Assembly (NCBI GenBank): GCA_016180425.1
Contig: JACPBF010000015.1
Span: forward strand, 1 to 55,278
DNA length: 55,278 nucleotides
Source: Elusimicrobiota bacterium
Lineage (GTDB): Bacteria > Elusimicrobiota > Elusimicrobia > 2-02-FULL-39-32
Direction: 5' to 3'
Of this stretch, positions 5,742 through 36,777 are shown piece after piece. The notes below the pieces were generated by a model, which did not search any database, had not been told where the DNA came from, and was given only the letters and a program-made list of their open reading frames with translations. The position numbers and the translations under genes were made by a program. The first letter of the stretch is position 1. Every line of letters starts with the position of its first letter.

Positions 5742-5850
5742 AACGTTCGGTAGCCCGGCTGGCATCTCCACCAAGAACATCTGGCGAGTTAGTCCCGTGG
5801 CTTTGCGTACTCACTCTAGCTTTCACTAGAGGGTGCCCTTATCGAGTTAT
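5740..5850 (-). promoter_or_regulatory. Cyclic-di-GMP-I (GEMM-I) riboswitch
   Basis: On the minus strand the RNA shows AAGGGCA, a CUCUAG-UGAAAG-CUAGAG hairpin presenting a GAAA tetraloop, then the hallmark ACGCAAAGCCACGGG. A second arm follows, built from CUCGCCA paired with UGGUGGAG (one bulge), and then GCCGGGCUACCG. These match the GEMM-I consensus: GCAAAGCC ligand strand, tetraloop and receptor, GGNUACCG end. The base aligned with G20 of the Vibrio Vc2 aptamer is G, which predicts c-di-GMP rather than cGAMP. P1 is AUAACUCG (5843-5850) with CGA-AC-GUUAU (5740-5749), so its 3' strand includes the A and U of the AUG at 5741. Ligand-stabilised P1 should therefore block initiation. Confidence 0.88.
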
Positions 5851-21700: not shown

Positions 21701-22015
21701 TCAATCAATCCCAAGCGCAAATTTTAAAGCTTTTTCTGCAAGATGCATTTTATGAGGAGAGAGAAGTGCGGCGCGTTGTGTTAAGAGCGCCTTTGGAATG
21801 GTATTGATATTATCCATGTTGATAACGCATGGTTTTGGCAGACCATCTTCTAGACCCAAAGAAACTTCAACTGGAATATTCCGAATGGTTCGTGTAATCA
21901 AAGCAACTGTAACATAAAGGCGTACTTGTATCGCTTTAGTGCGGGAAAGTAGTAGAACCGGTCTTTTACCAACTGGTTTAGGTAGATGTGCCCACCAGAT
22001 TTCTCCTCTTTGCAT
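21701..22015 (-). CDS. MazF/PemK-family toxin (type II TA pair 1)
   Basis: 104 aa from the ATG at 22015, overlapping the antitoxin stop as TAATG; a GTG six bases upstream is also in frame. The family core is clear: MQRGEIWWAHLP, KRPVLLLSR with the active-site Arg, VTVALITRTIR, and CVINMDNINTIPKALLTQRAALLS with the second strand motif. MazF-type toxins are sequence-specific endoribonucleases that halt translation until bound by antitoxin. Organisation antitoxin-then-toxin with translational coupling is standard. Confidence 0.92.
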   Translation of the reverse strand: MQRGEIWWAHLPKPVGKRPVLLLSRTKAIQVRLYVTVALITRTIRNIPVEVSLGLEDGLPKPCVINMDNINTIPKALLTQRAALLSPHKMHLAEKALKFALGID

Positions 22016-22269
22016 TACCACCTCTCCTTGGGGATACTTAAGCGCCCAGCTTTAAAATAGGCATTCATTTCTGTAAAATCCTCAGGTTTTTTTCTGTAAC
22101 CCTCAGCATAACGATTTTCAAGATTTTGTATTTCTATTTTATGAAATAAATCATGAATAGCTTCTTGAAATATTTCGCTGCGTGATTTATCTAATTTTTT
22201 GCGCACGCTCTCTAAGTGCTGATAATCTTCCTTGCGTAAACTGATTGCGGTCCGAACAGAATTTGTCAT
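22015..22269 (-). CDS. Ribbon-helix-helix antitoxin (TA pair 1)
   Basis: 84 aa. The N-terminal ribbon-helix-helix reads SVRTAISLRKEDYQHLESVRKKLDKSRSEIFQEAIHDLF (the strand, helix and SRSEI turn typical of MazE/CopG-like proteins). The C-terminal part is the acidic and aromatic toxin-binding tail (RYAEGYRKKPEDFTEM). AGGAGG lies 6 nt before the ATG. The promoter just upstream has a direct repeat AGTTATA (twice, 11 nt apart) over the -10 region, a possible autorepression operator. Confidence 0.9.
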   Translation of the reverse strand: MTNSVRTAISLRKEDYQHLESVRKKLDKSRSEIFQEAIHDLFHKIEIQNLENRYAEGYRKKPEDFTEMNAYFKAGRLSIPKERW

Positions 22270-22703: not shown

Positions 22704-23912
22704 TTAGAACTTGTAGATTAACTCTGCAGCCACTGATTTTTCTGTACTTTCTGTTGGAGACAATACCCCATTATATGCCACAAACCCATTTCTGTTTTCA
22801 AAGGCTTGTCCATGGGATGCCCAGTCATAACGATACTCGACCCTTGCCATCAAGTTTTCAGTTAGATTATATCCCGGTGCGATAGTAATATTTTGGAAAA
22901 TACCACCGTCATAGATTGCTGCGCCAATGTAATTGGTTCTTGCACCATTAAGGTCTGAGAACCATTCATAGCGCGCGCCAATAAAGAATTTATCAGTGAC
23001 GTCGTATTTTGGTTGGATTCCAGCGCCATACCAATGTCCTGTTCCGCCGTCAACTAGTCCGTCAAAATTTTTATCGTTGACATTGGTCCCTTCTTCTTGA
23101 CCAGCGTTTGCTTGAAGCGCTAAGGTCAATTTACTAATAGGTTTTATAAACCAAGTGCTATCAATCGAAGTTCTTTGATTGGTATTACTTGGAGCAGCAT
23201 TGGCGTTTGTTTCTTGTCCGCGATAAAAGGCAAATGATCCAAAGAATTTCTCGCCAAAATTAAGTCCTATTTTGGAGACAAAAGTTTTTGAGTAGTTATT
23301 ATCAGTATGGAGATCCCAGCCATTTACTGCGCCTACCCAGACATCTAAGATTGAGGGAAATGCGTATCCCGCAACTGCGCCAACATGCGTATAAGGTTCC
23401 GCAAGGCCAAATAAGGCGCCTCTAGAAATGGTGAAATTGTCCTTTGATTCAATAACCTCAATTCCCTCAAAGGTTACAAATTTACCAGCTTTTAACTGAA
23501 TACCGCTCATTGGACATTTATATGTGAGGTAAGCTTCTTGGACTTCAACATTGTATAACGTCGTGCTTTGAGTTCCTAGGGTGCCGCCAGTTGCGTTATC
23601 ATTACCAGTCCCTGCACCTTTATAGATAGATGGATCTGTTCCAAAAGCAAGTTCTCCATAATATCCTATTCCCTCTTCTGCATTTCCAGAAATATTTAAC
23701 TGAAATGCATTTAATAGAAACGCATCGGTCTTCCGATCAAAAGAACGACCATTTACAATTCTACTTTGCGGTTTATTAAAGGAATAGTTATATGTAGTAT
23801 CAATGAATCCGCTAATGGTTGGTTTAGGCATTTCTGCATAGAGTGTGGCGGCAGTAAGCATTACAGCTAATAAGCTCCACAGTTTTACAGTTTTTACAAT
23901 TATTTTTTTCAT
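22704..23912 (-). CDS. Outer-membrane beta-barrel porin (OmpL/BBP2-like)
   Basis: 402 aa from the ATG at 23912, which has AGGAGG 8 nt upstream; the 29 codons before it in the open frame are rejected. A signal peptide ends TLYA-EMPKP. The mature protein has alternating amphipathic strands, aromatic-rich, such as SGFIDTTYNYSFN, IQLKAGKFVTFEGIEVIES, DKFFIGARYEWFSD and ENLMARVEYRYDWAS, and ends in AELIYKF with a C-terminal Phe, the usual beta-barrel assembly signal. It is last in the nitrogen operon after amt and PII genes, so a role in uptake of ammonium or small nitrogen compounds across the outer membrane is a reasonable inference. Confidence 0.9.
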   Translation of the reverse strand: MKKIIVKTVKLWSLLAVMLTAATLYAEMPKPTISGFIDTTYNYSFNKPQSRIVNGRSFDRKTDAFLLNAFQLNISGNAEEGIGYYGELAFGTDPSIYKGAGTGNDNATGGTLGTQSTTLYNVEVQEAYLTYKCPMSGIQLKAGKFVTFEGIEVIESKDNFTISRGALFGLAEPYTHVGAVAGYAFPSILDVWVGAVNGWDLHTDNNYSKTFVSKIGLNFGEKFFGSFAFYRGQETNANAAPSNTNQRTSIDSTWFIKPISKLTLALQANAGQEEGTNVNDKNFDGLVDGGTGHWYGAGIQPKYDVTDKFFIGARYEWFSDLNGARTNYIGAAIYDGGIFQNITIAPGYNLTENLMARVEYRYDWASHGQAFENRNGFVAYNGVLSPTESTEKSVAAELIYKF

Positions 23913-23946: not shown

Positions 23947-24264
23947 TTAATAGAGCGCTTCTTTATCTCTTTCCTCAGTTCGAATTCGAACCAAATCATC
24001 TACTTCTACAACCGCGATTTTTCCATCCCCGTTTTTACCAGTTCTTCCAGCAAGGATCAGTGTTTTGGCAATGGTGTCCACCTCGTTATCTTCAAGGTAG
24101 ATTTCAATTTTTACTTTTGGTTTTAAAAGAGGTTCTGGCGTAACTCTTTGTCTGCCAAAACCTTGAACTTTAGTTACAGTTACACCCGGCACTCCTGCTA
24201 AAAGCAATGAATCAATCGCGGTTTTTAGTTTTTCCTCGCGTAAGATACATTCAATTTTTTTCAT
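23947..24264 (-). CDS. PII-like nitrogen regulator with a shortened T-loop
   Basis: 105 aa. The PII fold is plain: MKKIECILREEKLKTAIDSLLLAGVPGVTVTKVQGFGRQ at the start, KPKVKIEIYLEDNEVD, and the B-loop TGKNGDGKIAVVEVDDLVRIRT. The T-loop, normally GHTExYRGAEYxxDFL, is reduced to RVTPEPLL, about eleven residues shorter and lacking the uridylylated Tyr51. The C-loop RTGE reads RTEE. It therefore keeps the nucleotide-binding B-loop but should not be modified by GlnD nor insert a normal T-loop into Amt. AGGAAA precedes the ATG. It is not a typical GlnB; PII-like sensors with altered T-loops are the best comparison. Confidence 0.9.
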   Translation of the reverse strand: MKKIECILREEKLKTAIDSLLLAGVPGVTVTKVQGFGRQRVTPEPLLKPKVKIEIYLEDNEVDTIAKTLILAGRTGKNGDGKIAVVEVDDLVRIRTEERDKEALY

Positions 24265-24285: not shown

Positions 24286-24321
24286 CTATCTTCATGGCTC
24301 TTGAAAAGGCCATGAAGATAG
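24286..24321 (-). other. 13-bp intercistronic stem-loop
   Basis: CTATCTTCATGGC pairs perfectly with GCCATGAAGATAG around a 10-nt loop, between the glnA remnant and the PII-like gene. No U-run follows, so it is more likely an RNA-processing or stabilising hairpin than a terminator. Confidence 0.6.
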
Positions 24322-24423: not shown

Positions 24424-24765
24424 CTAACCAATAGCAGCGCTGCCAGTTTCACCTGTGCGAATGCGAATACATTGTTCCATATTGGTTACCATGATTTTTC
24501 CATCGCCAATATTCCCGGTTCTTGCGCCTTTAATAATGGCGTCAATCGTAGGTTGAACAAAGTTATCATTGACCGCGATCTCAACTCTTACTTTTTTTAA
24601 AAGATTAATCTCTTCAATGGCTCCGCGGTAGCTTTCAGTGAAACCTTTTTGTTGTCCAGCGCCAACCACATTGGTGACTGTCATTTTGTGGACTTGCGCA
24701 TCAAACAATGCTTTTTTAACATCCGGTAATTTTTCCGGTTGAATCATTGCAGTTATAAGTTTCAT
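24424..24765 (-). CDS. glnK: PII nitrogen regulatory protein GlnK
   Basis: 113 aa. A canonical PII trimer subunit: [21 protein letters not shown]-loop [29 protein letters not shown] with Tyr in the uridylylation position (ESYRG), B-loop [11 protein letters not shown] and C-loop [12 protein letters not shown] senses ATP/ADP and 2-oxoglutarate and gates the Amt channel. It lies 44 nt after amt with AGGAGG before the ATG, the classic amt-glnK pairing. It contrasts with the second, T-loop-shortened PII-like gene of the same operon. Confidence 0.95.
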
Positions 24766-24809: not shown

Positions 24810-26243
24810 TTATTTGGCTGTAAAGATCTGGAAGTCTGCATAAGCTTCCATTCCATGTTCGCCAATATCCAAGCCTCTAATTTCTTCTTCGCGGCTAACT
24901 CTAATACCCATTATTGCCTTAATTGCATACCAAACAACCAAACTAATAATAAAGGTAAACGCACCTACTCCAACGACTCCAATGAGTTGGTCGGTAAAAG
25001 ATTTAAATCCACCGCCAAAAAGGAGTCCTAGAGGAGGCTGCGCTGCTCCACCAGCATAAGGAGCGGATGCAAAAAGTCCAACTGCCAGGGTTCCCCAAAT
25101 TCCATTAACTAAATGCACGGAAAGAGCGCCTACTGGATCATCTAGTTTTACTTTGTCAAAGAAAAGCACAGCAAAAACTACTAATACTCCTGCAATTGCT
25201 CCAATGACAACTGAAGATCCCACACCTACCCATGCGCAAGGAGCTGTGATTGCAACCAAGCCTGCTAAGCAGCCGTTCAGGATCATGGAAAGATCTGGTT
25301 TACCAAGAATGATGGAAGCAGTGATATAAGCAGCAACCGTGCCTGCTGCAGCTGCTGAGTTTGTGGTTACGCAAATGCGAGCAATATCTGAAGGCACTGC
25401 AGCCATAGTTGAGCCTGGATTAAAACCAAACCAACCTAACCAAAGAATAAAGCAGCCTAAAGTTGCAAGAGCCATGTTGTGTCCATAAATAGGATTTACA
25501 CTTCCATCTGCGCGATATTTTCCAATTCTGGGTCCTAGAGCTATGATGCCAGCTAAAGCAGCCCATCCACCTACAGAGTGCACAACAGTAGAACCTGCAA
25601 AATCCCAGAATCCTCTGGTTGCTAACCATCCGCCGCCCCAAATCCAATGGCCTGTAAGAGGGTACATGATCGCAACTAGAACAAAGGAGAAAACCACAAA
25701 GGAGTTGAAAATAATTCTGCCGCCAACTGCTCCAGATACAATAGTTGCCGCTGTTCCTGCAAATACTAATTGAAAGAAAAATTTAGCCCAGAGTGGAACT
25801 CCTGTCCAAGCAATAGAAGAATAAGCTCCTTGATAAGCGGCGCCCATTAAAGGACTATTATCTGCTCCTCCTACAAACCATAGACCATCAATTCCCATAA
25901 AACCATTGCCATTGCCAAACATAATGCCCCAGCCAATAATCCAGAAAGCTAAAGAAGCTATGGCAAATACCACAAAGTTTTTAGAGCAAATATTAACGCA
26001 ATTTTTGGCTTGTTGTAAGCCAGCTTCCAACATGCCAAAACCCGCATTCATCCAAAAAACCAACATCGCTGTAACTAATGTCCAGATTGTATCTGCCGCT
26101 ACTTTTCCACCAGAGATAGAGTCTGCTAATTCCTGCGTAAAAGGTACTACTTCTCCTTCTGCAAGAGCTAAGGGAATTAAAGTTACAACTATTCCCAAAG
26201 CGATAAAAAGCTTCTTGCCGAATCTTTTTAACATGCTTTTCAT
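24810..26243 (-). CDS. amt: Ammonium transporter Amt
   Basis: 477 aa with a signal-like N-terminus (LFIALGIVVTLIPLALA) followed by about eleven membrane helices. Family landmarks are DTIWTLVTAMLVFWMNAGFGMLEAGL, NFVVFAIASLAFWIIGWGIMFG, DFAGSTVVHSVGGWAALAG (first pore His), GWFGFNPGST and DDPVGALSVHLVNGIWGTLAVGLF (second pore His). It passes ammonium across the inner membrane. AGGAGG lies 9 nt before the ATG. Expression is likely controlled by transcription attenuation in the 250-nt leader, which carries an ANTAR-type hairpin pair and two terminators. Confidence 0.96.
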   Translation of the reverse strand: MKSMLKRFGKKLFIALGIVVTLIPLALAEGEVVPFTQELADSISGGKVAADTIWTLVTAMLVFWMNAGFGMLEAGLQQAKNCVNICSKNFVVFAIASLAFWIIGWGIMFGNGNGFMGIDGLWFVGGADNSPLMGAAYQGAYSSIAWTGVPLWAKFFFQLVFAGTAATIVSGAVGGRIIFNSFVVFSFVLVAIMYPLTGHWIWGGGWLATRGFWDFAGSTVVHSVGGWAALAGIIALGPRIGKYRADGSVNPIYGHNMALATLGCFILWLGWFGFNPGSTMAAVPSDIARICVTTNSAAAAGTVAAYITASIILGKPDLSMILNGCLAGLVAITAPCAWVGVGSSVVIGAIAGVLVVFAVLFFDKVKLDDPVGALSVHLVNGIWGTLAVGLFASAPYAGGAAQPPLGLLFGGGFKSFTDQLIGVVGVGAFTFIISLVVWYAIKAIMGIRVSREEEIRGLDIGEHGMEAYADFQIFTAK

Positions 26244-26287
26244 TTGTGCTGCCTCCTTATTTATTTAGTGAATAGATAAAATAAAAA

Positions 26288-26339
26288 GTCCTAATTTTTT
26301 AAGTAAAACAATTACCTAAAAATTAGGACCTCTTTGTCC
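26288..26339 (-). promoter_or_regulatory. Second attenuator of the amt leader: A1/G4 hexaloop hairpin plus terminator
   Basis: A short hairpin GGAC-AAAGAG-GUCC (26326-26339) has a six-base loop with A first and G fourth. Its GUCC is also the start of a long stem, GUCCUAAUUUUUAGGUAA with UUACUUAAAAAAUUAGGAC (26288-26329), followed by UUUUUAU: a strong terminator 44 nt before the amt ATG. The two folds are mutually exclusive, the layout of an ANTAR P2/terminator. I find no matching P1 hairpin in the 75 nt upstream, so it is an incomplete or shared site. A separate AGUGGA...UCCACU pairing spans 26364-26406. Confidence 0.65.
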
Positions 26340-26414
26340 AAATTTTTTATTTTGAGAATTTTATTTTAGTGGATTTAGGTTAAAACAGGATTGAACAATG
26401 TTTCCACTACGCAT

Positions 26415-26489
26415 AAAAACCCCTTAGTTCTATTCAGAGAACCTTGAGGACTGCGTTGTCCTTTTTAGAAACAATACTACTTTGTACTG
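26415..26489 (-). promoter_or_regulatory. ANTAR-type two-hairpin antitermination target in the amt leader
   Basis: Two adjacent hairpins with hexanucleotide loops: P1 CAGUAC-AAAGUA-GUAUUG (26472-26489) and P2 AGGAC-AACGCA-GUCCU (26447-26462), 9 nt apart. Both loops have A at position 1 and G at position 4, the invariant bases of RNA sites bound by ANTAR regulators such as EutV and NasR. The 3' side of P2 is also the 5' start of a terminator, CCUCAAGGUUCU with AGAACUAAGGGG then UUUUU (26415-26449), as the ANTAR mechanism requires. Predicted transcription start lies at the first base of P1. The window encodes a GAF-GAF-ANTAR protein at 33188-34396. Confidence 0.82.
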
Positions 26490-26495
26490 GCGCAT

Positions 26496-26524
26496 ATATT
26501 AATAAACTCCTAAATAGTTGTCAA
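26496..26524 (-). promoter_or_regulatory. Promoter of the amt-glnK-porin operon
   Basis: Minus strand: -35 TTGACA (26519-26524), 17-nt spacer, -10 TAATAT (26496-26501). The start would be near 26489, directly at hairpin P1. Bases 26525-26612, up to the permease stop, hold no gene; TACTGGCGCATA near 26484 recurs inverted near 26571 with a 3-base insertion. Confidence 0.6.
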
Positions 26525-26612: not shown

Positions 26613-28598
26613 TTATACTCGTATAGGCAAAACAACCATGGTAATTCCCTGATGATAAAATTTTCGCTGCATTGCAAAAACTGTATAGTTATGGAGAAGG
26701 CGGGTAAAAAACGAGTCATGCGGAAAAACAAGTTGTCCTCCAAAAAATATTGTCTGAGGGAAACGTTGTAATATTTTTGGCGCAAGTTCAGATACCTCTT
26801 CTACCACATCGTTGCCTACAACATCATAACCCTCAGCATAAAATCCATTTCTTTTCATAAAATTAATATATTGGCCAATGTCTGCTTTTACCTTTGTCTG
26901 CAGACGTTCCACCTCTTTAGCTCCTTTAAAATTTCCAGAATCAATGATTCCAACTTGAACAAATACAAAATTTTTATAGATGCCTCCAAACAAACGGATC
27001 ACATTAAAAAGCGTGTGCAACCCTAAACCATTGAACCCATTGACCAAGATTACAGCGGTTTTAGCTTTTAAGTCAATTTCTGAATTTTCCCCTGGCTTTA
27101 CATTTGGAACAAAGTCAGCGCTAAAAGTAGAGAGCACCAAAGTTTCTAATCTTCTTAAGAGTTGTACAGTATGATAGTAATGCTTCTTAATAAGGAAGGA
27201 GGCTGTAATTAATGTGCCCGTCAATAGCAGTGTCAGCCATGCTCCTTCATGAAATTTTAATACAATCACAGAAACAAGAATAAAACTACAAAGAACCAAT
27301 CCTAAACCATTGATAAAAAATTTTTTGCGCCAACTCGTTCCATTAGCGCGTGATTTCCACCAATACCGGACCATGCCTAATTGAGAGAGCACAAAAGTGA
27401 TAAACACGTTAATACTGTAAAGCACCACCAGATATTTAACTGAGCCGCCAGTAAGAAGCATGAGAATTAACCCTGCTATTCCCATGATTAAAACACCATT
27501 TTGGCTGACAAACCGGTCGCTTAGCATGGTAAATCTGGAAGGGAACCAGCGGTCTAAAGACATATTTGCAAGAACCCGAGGCCCATCAATAAAACCAGCT
27601 TGCGCCGCTATAAAAAGAATTGCAGCCTCAGAAAACAGGGTAATTAAAACAAGGATAGTGCCGCTATTCCCATTCCACTGACTCGCTATTTTTTCAAAAA
27701 GAACAGCATTTAATGTTTTGCCTGCGACAGGTTGGACCCCATAGAGAAGATAAGCAATGATTAAACCCATAACTGTAAAGGAAAGAGACACTGCCATATA
27801 GGTCATTGTTTTTTTTCCTGTAGTTACCCTAGGCTCTCTTAAAATAGGCAAACCATTAGAGACAGCCTCTATTCCTGTAAAAGTGCCTGCGCCAAGACTA
27901 TAAGCTCTTAATATTAAGAAAATCATTCCCCAAGTGCCTAATTCTGAATGAGCGGTTTGAATATCATTTGCTGTGGAAATAACAATATCTGGTAAGTTAT
28001 TAATATGGGCAAATATTCCATAGAGAATGAAAAAAACATGGGTTATAACAAAAGTTAAAAAAATAGGAACAAGTGGAACAACGCTTTCTTTTACCCCTCT
28101 TGAATTTAAAATCATGAGTAAAATAATCCCTAGAAACGCGAATTCAAGTTTTAGATGGTACCATTGCACTGGTAAAAAGCTGAAAAGAGCGTCTGCGCCG
28201 CTCGCTATAGAGATAGTAATAGTGAGAATGTAGTCAATAATCAAAGCGCAGCCTGAAATCATGCCTAAGGTAGGGTTCAGCAGTTTACTTGCAACCAAAT
28301 ATCCCCCCCCGCCGGTAGGAAAAAGTTCTATTAGTTGGGAGTAACTGGCGCTGATCATAAAAATAGTTAAGACTGAGCATAGGCCAACAAAGATAGAAAG
28401 GTAGATATGACCGTTTAAAGCAAGGAATGCCTCTTCTGGTCCATAACAAGAGGAGGAGAGACCGTCCGCGCCTAAGCCTACCCAGGCAAAGAAGGCAACT
28501 AAGGAAAGTCTGTGATAGACATCGCGATCAAATGGGTTAAGGGCTGTGCCAAAAAGAAATGTTTTTATGCGTTCAGCCAAAGATGGCTTTGGTTCCAT
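26613..28598 (-). CDS. APC-superfamily permease, KimA/potassium-importer-like
   Basis: 661 aa. About twelve membrane helices occupy residues 25-470, with family motifs LSLVAFFAWVGLGADGLSSSCYGPEEAFLAL, FPTGGGGYLVASKLLNPTLGMISGCALIIDY and GAGTFTGIEAVSNGLPILREPRVTTGKKTM. The last 170 residues are soluble. This layout, GADGLSSSxYGPE in helix 1 and a long cytosolic C-terminus, recalls the KimA (YdaO) K+ importers of the APC superfamily more than amino-acid permeases, but substrate cannot be fixed by eye. It does not have the classical Kup N-terminus. Transcribed divergently from carA with overlapping -35 boxes. Confidence 0.8.
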   Translation of the reverse strand: MEPKPSLAERIKTFLFGTALNPFDRDVYHRLSLVAFFAWVGLGADGLSSSCYGPEEAFLALNGHIYLSIFVGLCSVLTIFMISASYSQLIELFPTGGGGYLVASKLLNPTLGMISGCALIIDYILTITISIASGADALFSFLPVQWYHLKLEFAFLGIILLMILNSRGVKESVVPLVPIFLTFVITHVFFILYGIFAHINNLPDIVISTANDIQTAHSELGTWGMIFLILRAYSLGAGTFTGIEAVSNGLPILREPRVTTGKKTMTYMAVSLSFTVMGLIIAYLLYGVQPVAGKTLNAVLFEKIASQWNGNSGTILVLITLFSEAAILFIAAQAGFIDGPRVLANMSLDRWFPSRFTMLSDRFVSQNGVLIMGIAGLILMLLTGGSVKYLVVLYSINVFITFVLSQLGMVRYWWKSRANGTSWRKKFFINGLGLVLCSFILVSVIVLKFHEGAWLTLLLTGTLITASFLIKKHYYHTVQLLRRLETLVLSTFSADFVPNVKPGENSEIDLKAKTAVILVNGFNGLGLHTLFNVIRLFGGIYKNFVFVQVGIIDSGNFKGAKEVERLQTKVKADIGQYINFMKRNGFYAEGYDVVGNDVVEEVSELAPKILQRFPQTIFFGGQLVFPHDSFFTRLLHNYTVFAMQRKFYHQGITMVVLPIRV

Positions 28599-33187: not shown

Positions 33188-34396
33188 TTAATTTTTAATT
33201 TCAAAAGAAAGAATAATAGCTTCTGAAATTTCTTTCATAGTCTTTCGTTTATCCATGGAAGTTTTCCTCATTTCTCGAAAAGCATCTTCTTCTGTTAATT
33301 TTTTTTCTTTCATTAAAATTCCTTTAGCTTTTTCAATGAGTTTCCTTGCTTCCAGCTCCTCTTTTGTGGATAGGGCTTCTTGTGTCAGGCGGGTGTGTTC
33401 AATAGCGATTGCAGCTTGTTGGGCTACAGAGGTGAGCATTTTGGTTTCCATTTCTGTAAAGTGATGTGGTTTAGGCGTATAACAATTAAGCACTCCAATA
33501 CATTTATCTTTAATCAGCATGGGCACAGAAACCAAAGAACATAAACCTTCAGCTCGAGCTATTTCTGGATACTGGTACTCAGGTTCTTTATGAATGTCAT
33601 AGATCAGTATAGGCTTTCTTTCAAGCACAGCCCTACCAGAAAGGCTCTCTTTAATTTTTAAAGCTGGTTTAGTGCGATAATCTTCAGAGAGAGATTGAGT
33701 GGCCACGATCGCAAGTTCTTCGTTCTTGTCGTCCACTAACATTAAAGAGCATATTTTGAAACCTAAGGATTGCGCAGTAATCGAGACAATCAATCTCAAT
33801 ATCTCCTCTAAATAAGATTTTCCCGCAACTAATCGAGAAACTTGGGCCAGGGTCTCAATCTGTTTAGCCCAGGCTTTGGTTTGAGTATAAAGCCTGGCAT
33901 TTTCTATTGATCCAGCTACCTGTTTAGAGATGGTGGAGAGCAATTCAATTTCTGAGTCCTTATAATGGTGAGATTTTTTATTTTGTAAATTAATAACCCC
34001 AATCAGTTGGGATTTAAGCAATAGTGGAAGTGAGAGAAGCGATTCGAACTTATCTTCACTTAAAGAAGGAAAATGTTTGAATCTAGGATCTTCATAAGCT
34101 TTTTCGCCAATAGAGACAGGTTCTTTGTGTTCAGCTACCCAGCCTGTGATGCCTTCGCCCATTTTCATTTTTATCTTGCCAAGGGTTTCAGCATGAGGGT
34201 TATGGGCGCCAGAAAGCACAAGATATTCTTTTTGGTCATCATAAAGGAAAATTAAGCAGGAATCGCTGCCCAGAACATCTACGATCATTTTTGAGATCTT
34301 ATGCAGAAGCTCCGGCAGTTCAATGGTGCTAGAAAGGATGTTGGTTATTCTATGGAGTAAGTCTAACTCTTTCTTGGCAGAGAGAGATTTTATCAT
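33188..34396 (-). CDS. GAF-GAF-ANTAR RNA-binding antiterminator
   Basis: 402 aa. Two GAF sensor domains occupy about 10-165 (ILSSTIELPELLHKISKMIVDVLG ... VGVINLQNKK-like ending in LLSTISKQVAGSIENARLY) and about 185-335 (MKIKESLSGRAVLERKPILIYD, LCSLVSVPMLIKDKCIGVLNCY, MLTSVAQQAAIAIEH). The C-terminal 55 residues form an ANTAR domain: LEARKLIEKAKGILMKEKKLTEEDAFREMRKTSMDKRKTMKEISEAI, with the helix order and AKGILM signature. ANTAR proteins bind paired hairpins and prevent terminators from forming, commonly in nitrogen metabolism. The amt leader in this window has exactly such a site. The ligand of the GAF domains is unknown. The mRNA is predicted to be nearly leaderless. Confidence 0.93.
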   Translation of the reverse strand: MIKSLSAKKELDLLHRITNILSSTIELPELLHKISKMIVDVLGSDSCLIFLYDDQKEYLVLSGAHNPHAETLGKIKMKMGEGITGWVAEHKEPVSIGEKAYEDPRFKHFPSLSEDKFESLLSLPLLLKSQLIGVINLQNKKSHHYKDSEIELLSTISKQVAGSIENARLYTQTKAWAKQIETLAQVSRLVAGKSYLEEILRLIVSITAQSLGFKICSLMLVDDKNEELAIVATQSLSEDYRTKPALKIKESLSGRAVLERKPILIYDIHKEPEYQYPEIARAEGLCSLVSVPMLIKDKCIGVLNCYTPKPHHFTEMETKMLTSVAQQAAIAIEHTRLTQEALSTKEELEARKLIEKAKGILMKEKKLTEEDAFREMRKTSMDKRKTMKEISEAIILSFEIKN

Positions 34397-34407
34397 TGAG
34401 GATAAGT

Positions 34408-34413
34408 ATTATA
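34408..34413 (-). promoter_or_regulatory. -10 box of the GAF-ANTAR gene
   Basis: Minus-strand TATAAT at 34408-34413 lies 11 nt before the ATG. No -35 match is visible; an inverted repeat TATAG/CTATA around 34423-34438 is placed where an activator could bind. Confidence 0.5.
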
Positions 34414-34479
34414 ACGCTTTTTTATAGAGAATACTATAGTGAGCTCTACATTGAATAAATTTACCTCTGACATAACATC

Positions 34480-34508
34480 TTGACATACACATTATTTATG
34501 TGTATAAT
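34480..34508 (+). promoter_or_regulatory. Consensus promoter and operator of TA pair 2
   Basis: -35 TTGACA (34480-34485), 17-nt spacer, -10 TATAAT (34503-34508). A perfect palindrome ATACACAT-TATTT-ATGTGTAT (34485-34505) fills the spacer and overlaps both boxes, an ideal operator for the RHH antitoxin. The ATG at 34515 falls at about the transcription start itself. Confidence 0.88.
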
Positions 34509-34514
34509 TTAATC

Positions 34515-34763
34515 ATGTTAAATATTAATACTACGAATCACAAGAGAGTAAATGTCACGTTGCCGCCGCAAACTCTAAAACTCATTGACAAGGTCACAGA
34601 AAAAGGCGATAGAAGCCGTCTTATTGATGAAGCAGTACGTTTCTATGTAAAAGAAATAGGCTACTCTAATCTAAGAAAGCGGATTCGAGAAGGAGCATTA
34701 ATGCGATCCTCTCGCGATCTTGAATTAGCGGAAGAATGGTTTGCGTTGGACAATGAGGCATGA
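34515..34763 (+). CDS. Ribbon-helix-helix antitoxin (TA pair 2)
   Basis: 82 aa from the ATG at 34515 (MLNINTTNHK). An in-frame TTG-type or ATG start at 34500 lies within the promoter spacer and is rejected. The RHH part reads KRVNVTLPPQTLKLIDKVTEKGDRSRLIDEAVRFYV, with the strand VNVTLP and the turn GDRSRLIDEA. The C-terminal half is the acidic toxin-binding tail (RDLELAEEWFALDNE). The stop overlaps the toxin ATG by four bases (ATGA). Sequence is unlike antitoxin 1, so this pair is not a recent duplicate. Confidence 0.9.
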   Translation: MLNINTTNHKRVNVTLPPQTLKLIDKVTEKGDRSRLIDEAVRFYVKEIGYSNLRKRIREGALMRSSRDLELAEEWFALDNEA

Positions 34764-35131
34764 CTCACGAATCTCATTCAATTACTCCCAAAAGAGGGGA
34801 AGTCTATTTTGTTAATTTCGATCCCACCATTGGATCAGAAATAAGGAAAACACGGCCTGCCCTCATTCTTCAAAATGATTTAGCTAATCGCTATAGCCCG
34901 ATTACAATCGTTGCTGCAATTACCTCCCGGTTTGATAAAAATCTTTATCCAACTGAAGTTCATATAAGTTCAGCTGAAGGTGGTTTAAATAAAGATTCTG
35001 TAGTTTTATTGAATCAGGTTCGTACCATAGACAAACAGAGACTTGTGCGAAAATTGGGGAACATACATTCTCAAACCCTTAAGCGAGTAGATAAGGCATT
35101 AAAAATAAGTTTCGGACTAGTAAATATTTAA
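34760..35131 (+). CDS. MazF/PemK-family toxin (TA pair 2)
   Basis: 123 aa. It has KRGEVYFVNFDPTIGSEIRKTRPALILQND (the MazF beta-barrel with the conserved Arg-Pro), ITIVAAITSRFDK, GGLNKDSVVLLNQVRTIDKQRLVRKLG and a C-terminal helix. Expected to be an mRNA-cleaving endoribonuclease neutralised by the preceding antitoxin. It ends 5 nt from the nadE stop on the opposite strand, so transcripts of the two will overlap unless terminated. Confidence 0.93.
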   Translation: MTHESHSITPKRGEVYFVNFDPTIGSEIRKTRPALILQNDLANRYSPITIVAAITSRFDKNLYPTEVHISSAEGGLNKDSVVLLNQVRTIDKQRLVRKLGNIHSQTLKRVDKALKISFGLVNI

Positions 35132-35136
35132 AATAG

Positions 35137-36777
35137 TTAAAATTCAGAGAAGCGGTTGGTCATGGGCATTCTGCGGTCTTTGCCAAAAGATTTTGGAGTA
35201 ATTTTAATGCCAGGAGGAGATTGTCTTCTTTTATATTCATTTGAATCAATTAACTTGATAACTCTGGAAACTGTACCACTATCAAATCCTTTTCTTAGAA
35301 GTTCATTATATCCTTGATCTTCTTCTACATAATATTGGATCAGTTGGTCTAATAAATCATAAGGTGGAAGAGAATCCTGATCTTTTTGAATGGGTTTAAG
35401 TTCAGCGGTTGGAGCTCGTTTAATGGTTGTTACAGGGATTATTTCATCACCTGATTTTTCATTGATAAAATGCGCCAGCTTATAGACTAAAGTTTTAGGC
35501 ACATCTTTTAAAACAGCAAACCCTCCTGCGGTATCTCCATAAAGTGTGCAGTAACCTACAGAAATTTCAGATTTATTCCCTGTGGTTAGCACTAAAGAAC
35601 CAAATTTGTTGGACAGAGCCATAAGAATTGTGCCGCGAATCCTGGACTGAAGATTTTCTTCAGTAATGTCAGGCTTTAACTCTTTAAAATGAGGAGCTAA
35701 AGTTTCTAAATAGGTTTTAAAAAGGGTTTCTATTTGTATTTCCATAAATGTTATTTTTAAATTTTCAGCTATTTTTTTAGCGTCGCCCAAAGTTTCATTA
35801 GAGGAATAACGGCTGGGCATGGTCACCCCAATCACTTTCTCCTTGCCTAAAGCTTCTTTTGCAATGACTGCGGTTAGCGCGGAATCTATCCCTCCGGAAA
35901 GCCCAATTAAGACTGATTGAAAATGATTTTTTTCCACATAGTCTTTTGTGCCTAGAACCAGAGCTTTATAAATTTCCTCTATCTTTTGACCCAGGTCTTC
36001 CCTGTTTTTTTCAATTTGTATAAAGGATGGTTCTGATTTTTTGGAGGGTTCAACTTCCACAATTTTTATATCTTCCTCAAATGACTTGGCTAGGGCAATA
36101 AGATTTCCTTTATGGTCAAGTGCCATGCTTCTTCCATCAAAAATAAGTTCATCCTGTCCGCCAACTAAATTTACATAAATCAAAGGGCATTTACTTTCTT
36201 TCACTCTTTTTTTTAAGAGGTCCAAACGAAGTTTAAATTTTTCCGCAAAAAATGGAGAGGAAGATATGTTGATCAATATTTTTGCCCCTAGCTTAGATTG
36301 TTTTAGACAAATGCTAGGCTGCTGAGCGACCCAAATATCCTCGCAGATAGAGATTCCCATGGAAACATTTAAAATTTTAAAGATTTTTGTTTTTTGACCT
36401 GGCTCAAAATACCTTTTTTCATCAAAAACCCCATAGTTGGGAAGAGCCTGTTTAGAATAAAGTTCCAATATTTTTGATGAGCCTAGAAGAGCGGCAGAAT
36501 TATAGAGTTTGCCTTTTTCTTTATTCACAAACCCTACAATGGCGAAAGAATTTCTAATTTGAGAGGCAAGCTCTTTAAGGCAATCTATATTTTTTTGAAT
36601 AAAACTTTTCCTTAATAGTAGATCTTCAGCAGGATATCCAGGAAGAGCGCACTCAGGGAATATGGTGAGATCAGCGCTAAAGTCAGAGATAGCTCTATGG
36701 TGGAATTCCAGAATTTTTTTAGCATTTCCTTCAATGTCCCCAACGGTTGAGTTAATTTGACAGAGCGCTATTTTCAT
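35137..36777 (-). CDS. nadE: Glutamine-dependent NAD+ synthetase
   Basis: 546 aa, the two-domain form. Residues 1-250 are a nitrilase-type glutaminase with the Glu-Lys-Cys triad visible as FPECALPGYP, GFVNKEKGKLYNSA and ISICEDIWVA. Residues about 270-546 are the ammonia-dependent synthetase with the pyrophosphate loop VLIGLSGGIDSALTAVIAKEAL, TTGNKSEISVGYCTLYGDTAGG and the C-terminal RRMPMTNRF. It amidates nicotinate adenine dinucleotide to NAD. Its ATG overlaps the murG stop (ATGA), so it is the last gene of the dcw transcript, an unusual location. Confidence 0.96.
   Translation of the reverse strand: MKIALCQINSTVGDIEGNAKKILEFHHRAISDFSADLTIFPECALPGYPAEDLLLRKSFIQKNIDCLKELASQIRNSFAIVGFVNKEKGKLYNSAALLGSSKILELYSKQALPNYGVFDEKRYFEPGQKTKIFKILNVSMGISICEDIWVAQQPSICLKQSKLGAKILINISSSPFFAEKFKLRLDLLKKRVKESKCPLIYVNLVGGQDELIFDGRSMALDHKGNLIALAKSFEEDIKIVEVEPSKKSEPSFIQIEKNREDLGQKIEEIYKALVLGTKDYVEKNHFQSVLIGLSGGIDSALTAVIAKEALGKEKVIGVTMPSRYSSNETLGDAKKIAENLKITFMEIQIETLFKTYLETLAPHFKELKPDITEENLQSRIRGTILMALSNKFGSLVLTTGNKSEISVGYCTLYGDTAGGFAVLKDVPKTLVYKLAHFINEKSGDEIIPVTTIKRAPTAELKPIQKDQDSLPPYDLLDQLIQYYVEEDQGYNELLRKGFDSGTVSRVIKLIDSNEYKRRQSPPGIKITPKSFGKDRRMPMTNRFSEF

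Follow-up and report, generated by a model that had tools for sequence, protein, structure and literature searches.

A candidate ANTAR-controlled attenuator with a second terminator unit in the amt-glnK leader of an Elusimicrobiota bacterium

The leader of the amt-glnK operon carried by a 55,278-nucleotide contig of an Elusimicrobiota bacterium (the whole of this stretch is called the window below) is very probably an ANTAR-controlled transcription attenuator, with a GAF-GAF-ANTAR protein encoded in the same window as its candidate partner. The ANTAR interpretation is well supported by the leader sequence and by comparison with related genomes. Beyond the paired hairpins P1 and P2 and the terminator T1, the leader holds a conserved second unit before amt, in which a hairpin without a P1 of its own (P2') overlaps a second predicted terminator (T2), and which appears to be new here.

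Architecture of the leader

The elements of the leader (Table 1) follow one another in the order promoter, P1, P2, T1, spacer, P2', T2, ribosome-binding site and amt. An earlier note on this DNA, made from the letters alone, had described two hairpins 9 nt apart with the A1/G4 hexaloops AAAGUA and AACGCA, all of which are present on the minus strand, and the interval that it gave corresponds exactly to the stretch from P1 through the U tract. It had also placed the 3' side of P2 at the start of the U5-ending terminator and the transcription start at the first base of P1; both placements hold, three nucleotides (26449-26447) being common to the P2 3' arm and the T1 5' arm, and TTGACA-17-TAATAT putting the predicted +1 at about 26489, with P1 beginning 7 nt past this promoter. 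The P2 and T1 folds are mutually exclusive. Every sequence-level feature of an ANTAR dual-hexaloop site that could be tested was found, namely two short hairpins, hexaloops with A1 and G4 in both, a constrained linker and the overlap of P2 with the terminator. The energy of the T1 stem-loop (-9.6 kcal/mol) is modest and is counted against the ANTAR reading. The extent first assigned to the leader was right for P1, P2 and T1, but the leader is larger and the P2'-T2 unit had been missed: an 80-nt spacer containing a hairpin separates T1 from P2', and the 3' arm of P2' forms the start of the 5' arm of T2, whose stem (26330-26287) has an energy of -18.6 kcal/mol.

Table 1. Features of the amt-glnK leader, its operon and the candidate regulator (window coordinates)
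Feature	Position	Strand	Remarks
-35 element, TTGACA	26519..26524	-	recurs in most related leaders
-10 element, TAATAT	26496..26501	-	17 nt after TTGACA (26524-26519)
P1 hairpin	26472..26489	-	6 bp, CAGUAC-AAAGUA-GUAUUG; hexaloop AAAGUA (A1, G4)
P1-P2 linker	26463..26471	-	9 nt
P2 (antiterminator) hairpin	26447..26462	-	5 bp, AGGAC-AACGCA-GUCCU; hexaloop AACGCA (A1, G4)
Predicted intrinsic terminator T1	26415..26449	-	stem-loop 26449-26420, U5 26419-26415
Spacer hairpin between T1 and P2'	26367..26409	-	spacer nearly unchanged in same-genus G001
P2' hairpin	26326..26339	-	4 bp, GGAC-AAAGAG-GUCC; hexaloop AAAGAG (A1, G4); without upstream P1
Second predicted intrinsic terminator T2	26278..26330	-	stem 26330-26287, then UUUUAUUUU
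amt, ammonium transporter	24810..26243	-	477 aa
glnK, P-II protein	24424..24765	-	113 aa
Second P-II-like gene	23947..24264	-	105 aa; probably same operon
BBP2-type outer-membrane porin gene	22704..23912	-	probably last of operon; likely start ATG 23912
Amino-acid permease gene	26613..28598	-	upstream of leader
GAF-GAF-ANTAR protein, candidate antiterminator	33188..34396	-	402 aa

The following course of events is proposed for this leader. Transcription would start at P1 from a sigma70-type promoter, and without active ANTAR protein RNA polymerase would stop at T1, any polymerase that passes T1 being stopped at T2. Activation of the GAF-GAF-ANTAR protein would most likely follow nitrogen limitation; P1 would then recruit an ANTAR dimer that stabilises P2, so that T1 could not form; the dimer would then stabilise the single hairpin P2', T2 could not form in its turn, and amt-glnK would be transcribed.

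Further features were observed among the neighbouring genes. A long perfect inverted repeat without a U tract lies between glnK and the second P-II gene (24286-24321, minus strand), and no ANTAR site was found between these two genes. The window also encodes two PemK/MazF-like toxins (21701-22021, minus strand; 34760-35131, plus strand), and a c-di-GMP-I riboswitch (5746-5847, minus strand, 44.3 bits) starts a 1837-aa open reading frame without Pfam match, the true start of which is probably further downstream because its first ATG overlaps the riboswitch aptamer.

Chance occurrence and covariance searches

When both strands of the window (55 kb) were scanned for A1/G4 hexaloop hairpins overlapping a terminator, two sites were obtained, both in the amt leader, and just one of them has a P1, which makes it the sole dual-hairpin-plus-terminator site of the window. 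Dinucleotide shuffles of the window (n=40) gave dual sites in 0/40 cases and a mean of 0.9 single sites, and shuffles of the leader (n=3000) gave neither the dual architecture (0/3000) nor two single sites in one leader (0/3000).

These frequencies bear on another explanation, according to which T1 and T2 simply end, without regulation, the transcript of the upstream amino-acid permease gene, which has the same orientation, and the hexaloop hairpins are coincidental. Two P2-plus-terminator sites in one leader did not arise by shuffling, and a strong promoter with its +1 at P1, recurring in relatives, stands between the permease gene and T1. Moreover, in G001, of the same genus, the leader is about 95% identical while the sequence 5' of the promoter diverges, and across genera the loops and stems are conserved despite differing stem sequences, with matches that track ANTAR genes (see below), all of which makes terminators of the permease transcript an extremely improbable explanation.

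Two covariance models support the ANTAR assignment of the leader: R1 was trained on ten leaders, the amt leader of the window among them, and R2 on six leaders, all from other taxonomic families. A search of this kind had been suggested in the earlier note, and R2, built without this family, ranks the amt leader top in the window (25.4 bits, E=6.5e-4); on 16 other loci the top eight places went to the eight true leaders (E<=0.04), and leaderless amt loci, including those of ANTAR-minus genomes, gave nothing below E=0.2, all these E-values being rough because the calibration was short. A separate R2 match before carA (28548-28589, plus strand, 17.3 bits) was dropped, as the window scan shows no overlapping terminator there.

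Conservation in relatives and co-occurrence with ANTAR genes

The placement of the organism in Elusimicrobiota agrees with a single protein, the DNA polymerase I of the window, which shows 47% identity to that of Elusimicrobia bacterium RIFOXYA2_FULL_50_26 and an equal value to genomes assigned to the same class. In related Elusimicrobiota the layout promoter-P1-P2-terminator is likewise seen before amt, and some of them have it before glnA, glutamine synthetase III or nifA. Conservation upstream of amt, on which the earlier note had let its own claim depend, was found: the hairpins are kept in G001, G003-G006, G008, G013, G020, G022 and others. In most related leaders TTGACA and TANNNT are separated by 16-18 nt and followed by P1 5-8 nt downstream, and the linker, measured between 5-bp stems, has 3-16 nt, with exceptions of 30 and 40; long linkers occur in G003-amt2 and G010. 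Some accepted leaders deviate otherwise, with a 7-nt P1 loop in G008 and in the own-genome leader of an outer-membrane-like protein, and G or C at loop position 1 in several. The loop G4 and the loop-closing C-G pairs are invariant in 18 aligned leaders, and in most of the outer stem pairs both partners vary, although hairpin formation was one ground for choosing the instances, which inflates the covariation counts. The leader is absent from G007, which has amt and ANTAR, and from G002, which has amt and neither leader nor ANTAR; it is present in G005, yet no ANTAR gene was found in that assembly (80% complete, 320 contigs).

Among 196 genomes of the class, R1 matches occur in 11/23 of those with an ANTAR gene and in 2/173 of those without (Fisher p=3e-10). 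With the training genomes removed the comparison gives 3/15 against 1/172 (p=0.0016). The two ANTAR-minus genomes with a match are the incomplete G005 and G206, where the match is weak, and no motif was found at the amt genes of ANTAR-minus genomes in family f8.

A metabolite riboswitch, or an attenuator bound by some other RNA-binding protein, would show the same T1/T2 attenuation, and ANTAR hexaloops alone do not account for the spacer hairpin or for the near-complete conservation of the leader in G001. Against such a leader stands the outcome of the Rfam searches, in which neither gathering nor permissive thresholds returned a credible family, as well as the nature of what is invariant: C-G-closed hexaloops with G4, which are the ANTAR signature, and no conserved aptamer-like core. 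A non-ANTAR attenuator is thus considered very unlikely.

The candidate antiterminator

The GAF-GAF-ANTAR protein is the sole ANTAR (PF03861) protein found in the genome, with a score of 71.4-74.9 bits against a curated cut-off of 27.3, and its gene lies about 7 kb from the leader. When compared with EutV (REC-ANTAR) on eutP RNA (PDB 6WW6), 8 of the 11 RNA-contact residues are identical (R142, K143, K147, K149, E160, R168, M172, R175), whereas three are changed (Y164F, N173D, R177T), with Phe at 164 as in Rv1626; unlike EutV, the protein is without REC domain or cognate kinase. Its ANTAR domain also matches that of the solved NasR structure (4akk), and with NasR of Klebsiella (NIT-ANTAR) it shares the one-component arrangement of sensor plus ANTAR and the link to nitrogen assimilation, but its sensor is GAF-GAF instead of NIT and its putative target is ammonium transport, not nitrate assimilation. 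Domain searches found neither a REC (EutV-type) nor a NIT (NasR-type) domain, which leaves the protein outside both classes; as far as could be found, no regulator of this type has been characterised experimentally, and a literature search of incomplete coverage returned nothing on ANTAR in Elusimicrobia. The GAF domains may respond to a metabolite that reports nitrogen status, because the structures nearest to GAF1 are GAFs of the PtsP (EI-Ntr) type and GAF2 matches the model for NifA. No ANTAR site was found before the ANTAR gene itself. The gene stands near that of a nadE-type NAD synthase, the two together falling within 33188-36777, and an NAD synthase is also located beside ANTAR in G036 and G011.

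Candidate regulon and relation to NtrC

In the own-genome R1 search the two strongest matches are the two amt-glnK leaders, that of the window (43.4 bits) and that of a second operon on contig 5 (33.9 bits), and a weaker match (22.2 bits) marks P2, a terminator and P2' in the leader of the gene for a 259-aa outer-membrane-like protein. The candidate own-genome regulon composed of these two amt-glnK operons and the outer-membrane-like protein is new here; no ANTAR site was found at the own-genome leader of the glutamine synthetase III gene glnA. R1 also matched outside the training set, ahead of glnA-amt in G022, of glutamine synthetase III in G011 and of a nifA-type activator in G036, the nifA-type domains of the last being confirmed. 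R1 matches also occur at C39 and C6; weak ones at C22, G011 C113 and G033 C149 were dropped, there being no plausible terminator or gene leader. In G013 (C28, L180) a match at 1455-1491 belongs to a tandem ANTAR-type leader before an open reading frame of about 1780 aa without Pfam match.

In a single Omnitrophota isolate, two loci on separate contigs each have a GAF-ANTAR gene with a leader of the P1-P2-T1-P2'-T2 type directly behind it; next come a small gene resembling a regulator, a homologue of the outer-membrane-like protein (29% identity to the own-genome protein over its length) and amt. This ANTAR leader design directly 3' of a GAF-ANTAR gene in Omnitrophota is likewise new here. The outer-membrane-like family, which has no Pfam match, accompanies amt and ANTAR leaders in both Elusimicrobiota and Omnitrophota (L171 5683-6462, own genome C18; L018 3295-4095). 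In Omnitrophota Bin_214 (L075, 3815-3866 and 6653-6720), there are two amt-glnK pairs, the second of which is preceded by an ANTAR-type leader, and a further P2-terminator-like site lies downstream.

It had been suggested in the earlier note that ammonium uptake is controlled by ANTAR antitermination rather than NtrC. This is too strong for the genome as a whole, because it encodes sigma54 and three full-length NtrC-like proteins (all below the NtrC cut-off), and because a sigma54-like -24/-12 element, TGGCAACCTTGTTGCT, is found at the second amt-glnK operon, roughly 195 nt upstream of the ATG of amt2 (contig 5, L145) and conserved in G001. Since this element stands upstream of that operon's own P1-P2-terminator, the second operon is apparently under double control by sigma54 and ANTAR; the suggestion is only partly right, and the amt operon of the window alone seems to rely on a promoter of the sigma70 type plus attenuation.

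The second unit

The P2'-T2 unit is part of the leader before amt in G000, G001, G003, G004, G005, G006, G008, G022 and G033, and G013 and G028 also have leaders that carry it, T2 of G022 and G028 having been read by eye from the sequence and not by scan; the own-genome gene of the outer-membrane-like protein has a P2'-like hairpin upstream without a clear T2. In every leader with P2', no A1/G4 hexaloop hairpin of at least 4 bp that could act as P1 partner was found before it.

Whether P2' is used by the regulator can be argued in two ways. It has been reported that EutV binds single hexaloops, but that antitermination in vitro needs closely spaced hairpins and is abolished when the P1-P2 linker is lengthened by 20 nt (Walshe et al. 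2022). P1 and P2 could then form an ANTAR site followed by a plain terminator or a coincidental hairpin that ANTAR does not bind, since P2' lacks a P1, is 57-147 nt away from P2 wherever it occurs, and carries G at loop position 1 in three leaders and U in both Omnitrophota copies. However, single-hexaloop binding by EutV itself speaks against this, P2' loops that have G4 and are closed by a C-G pair recur at the terminator 5' arm across several genera, the chance of an A1/G4 4-bp hairpin at this position being 0.005-0.025 per leader, and an unregulated T2 would mean poor amt expression from the leader promoter. A P2'-T2 unit outside ANTAR control is therefore regarded as possible but somewhat doubtful. 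We consider it an evenly balanced proposition that ANTAR switching takes place in two stages in the amt leaders, in which P2'-T2 would be a natural single-hexaloop site, a possibility raised after the EutV-RNA structure, with the dimer handed over from P2 or captured directly, within a regulon of uncharacterised GAF-GAF-ANTAR sensors that have single-GAF relatives in Omnitrophota.

Discussion

ANTAR sites have been predicted before genes for ammonium transporters, P-II proteins, glutamine and glutamate synthase and nitrogenase, and GAF-ANTAR proteins were mentioned in the same work as uncharacterised (Ramesh et al. 2012, PMC3369931). Since these predictions already cover ammonium transporters and P-II proteins, a leader of this kind is not new in itself; novelty could lie in the second unit and in the GAF-GAF sensor. 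With the sites described there (EutV/eut, NasR/nasF, AmiR/ami) the leader shares two A1/G4 hexaloop hairpins, a short linker, the P2-terminator overlap and targets in nitrogen metabolism. It differs from them in belonging to Elusimicrobiota, in having P1 at the 5' end of the RNA and in carrying an additional P2'-terminator unit without P1, and the regulator differs in having two GAF domains in place of REC or NIT.

The finding extends the known range of nitrogen control by ANTAR to a phylum with few cultured members, the Elusimicrobiota, and supplies a concrete candidate regulon, made up of two amt-glnK operons and an outer-membrane-like protein, with glnA, glutamine synthetase III and nifA in relatives; GAF-GAF-ANTAR proteins are thereby indicated as probable nitrogen-status sensors. 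The P2'-T2 unit, for its part, makes it testable whether one hexaloop may suffice for ANTAR antitermination during transcription.
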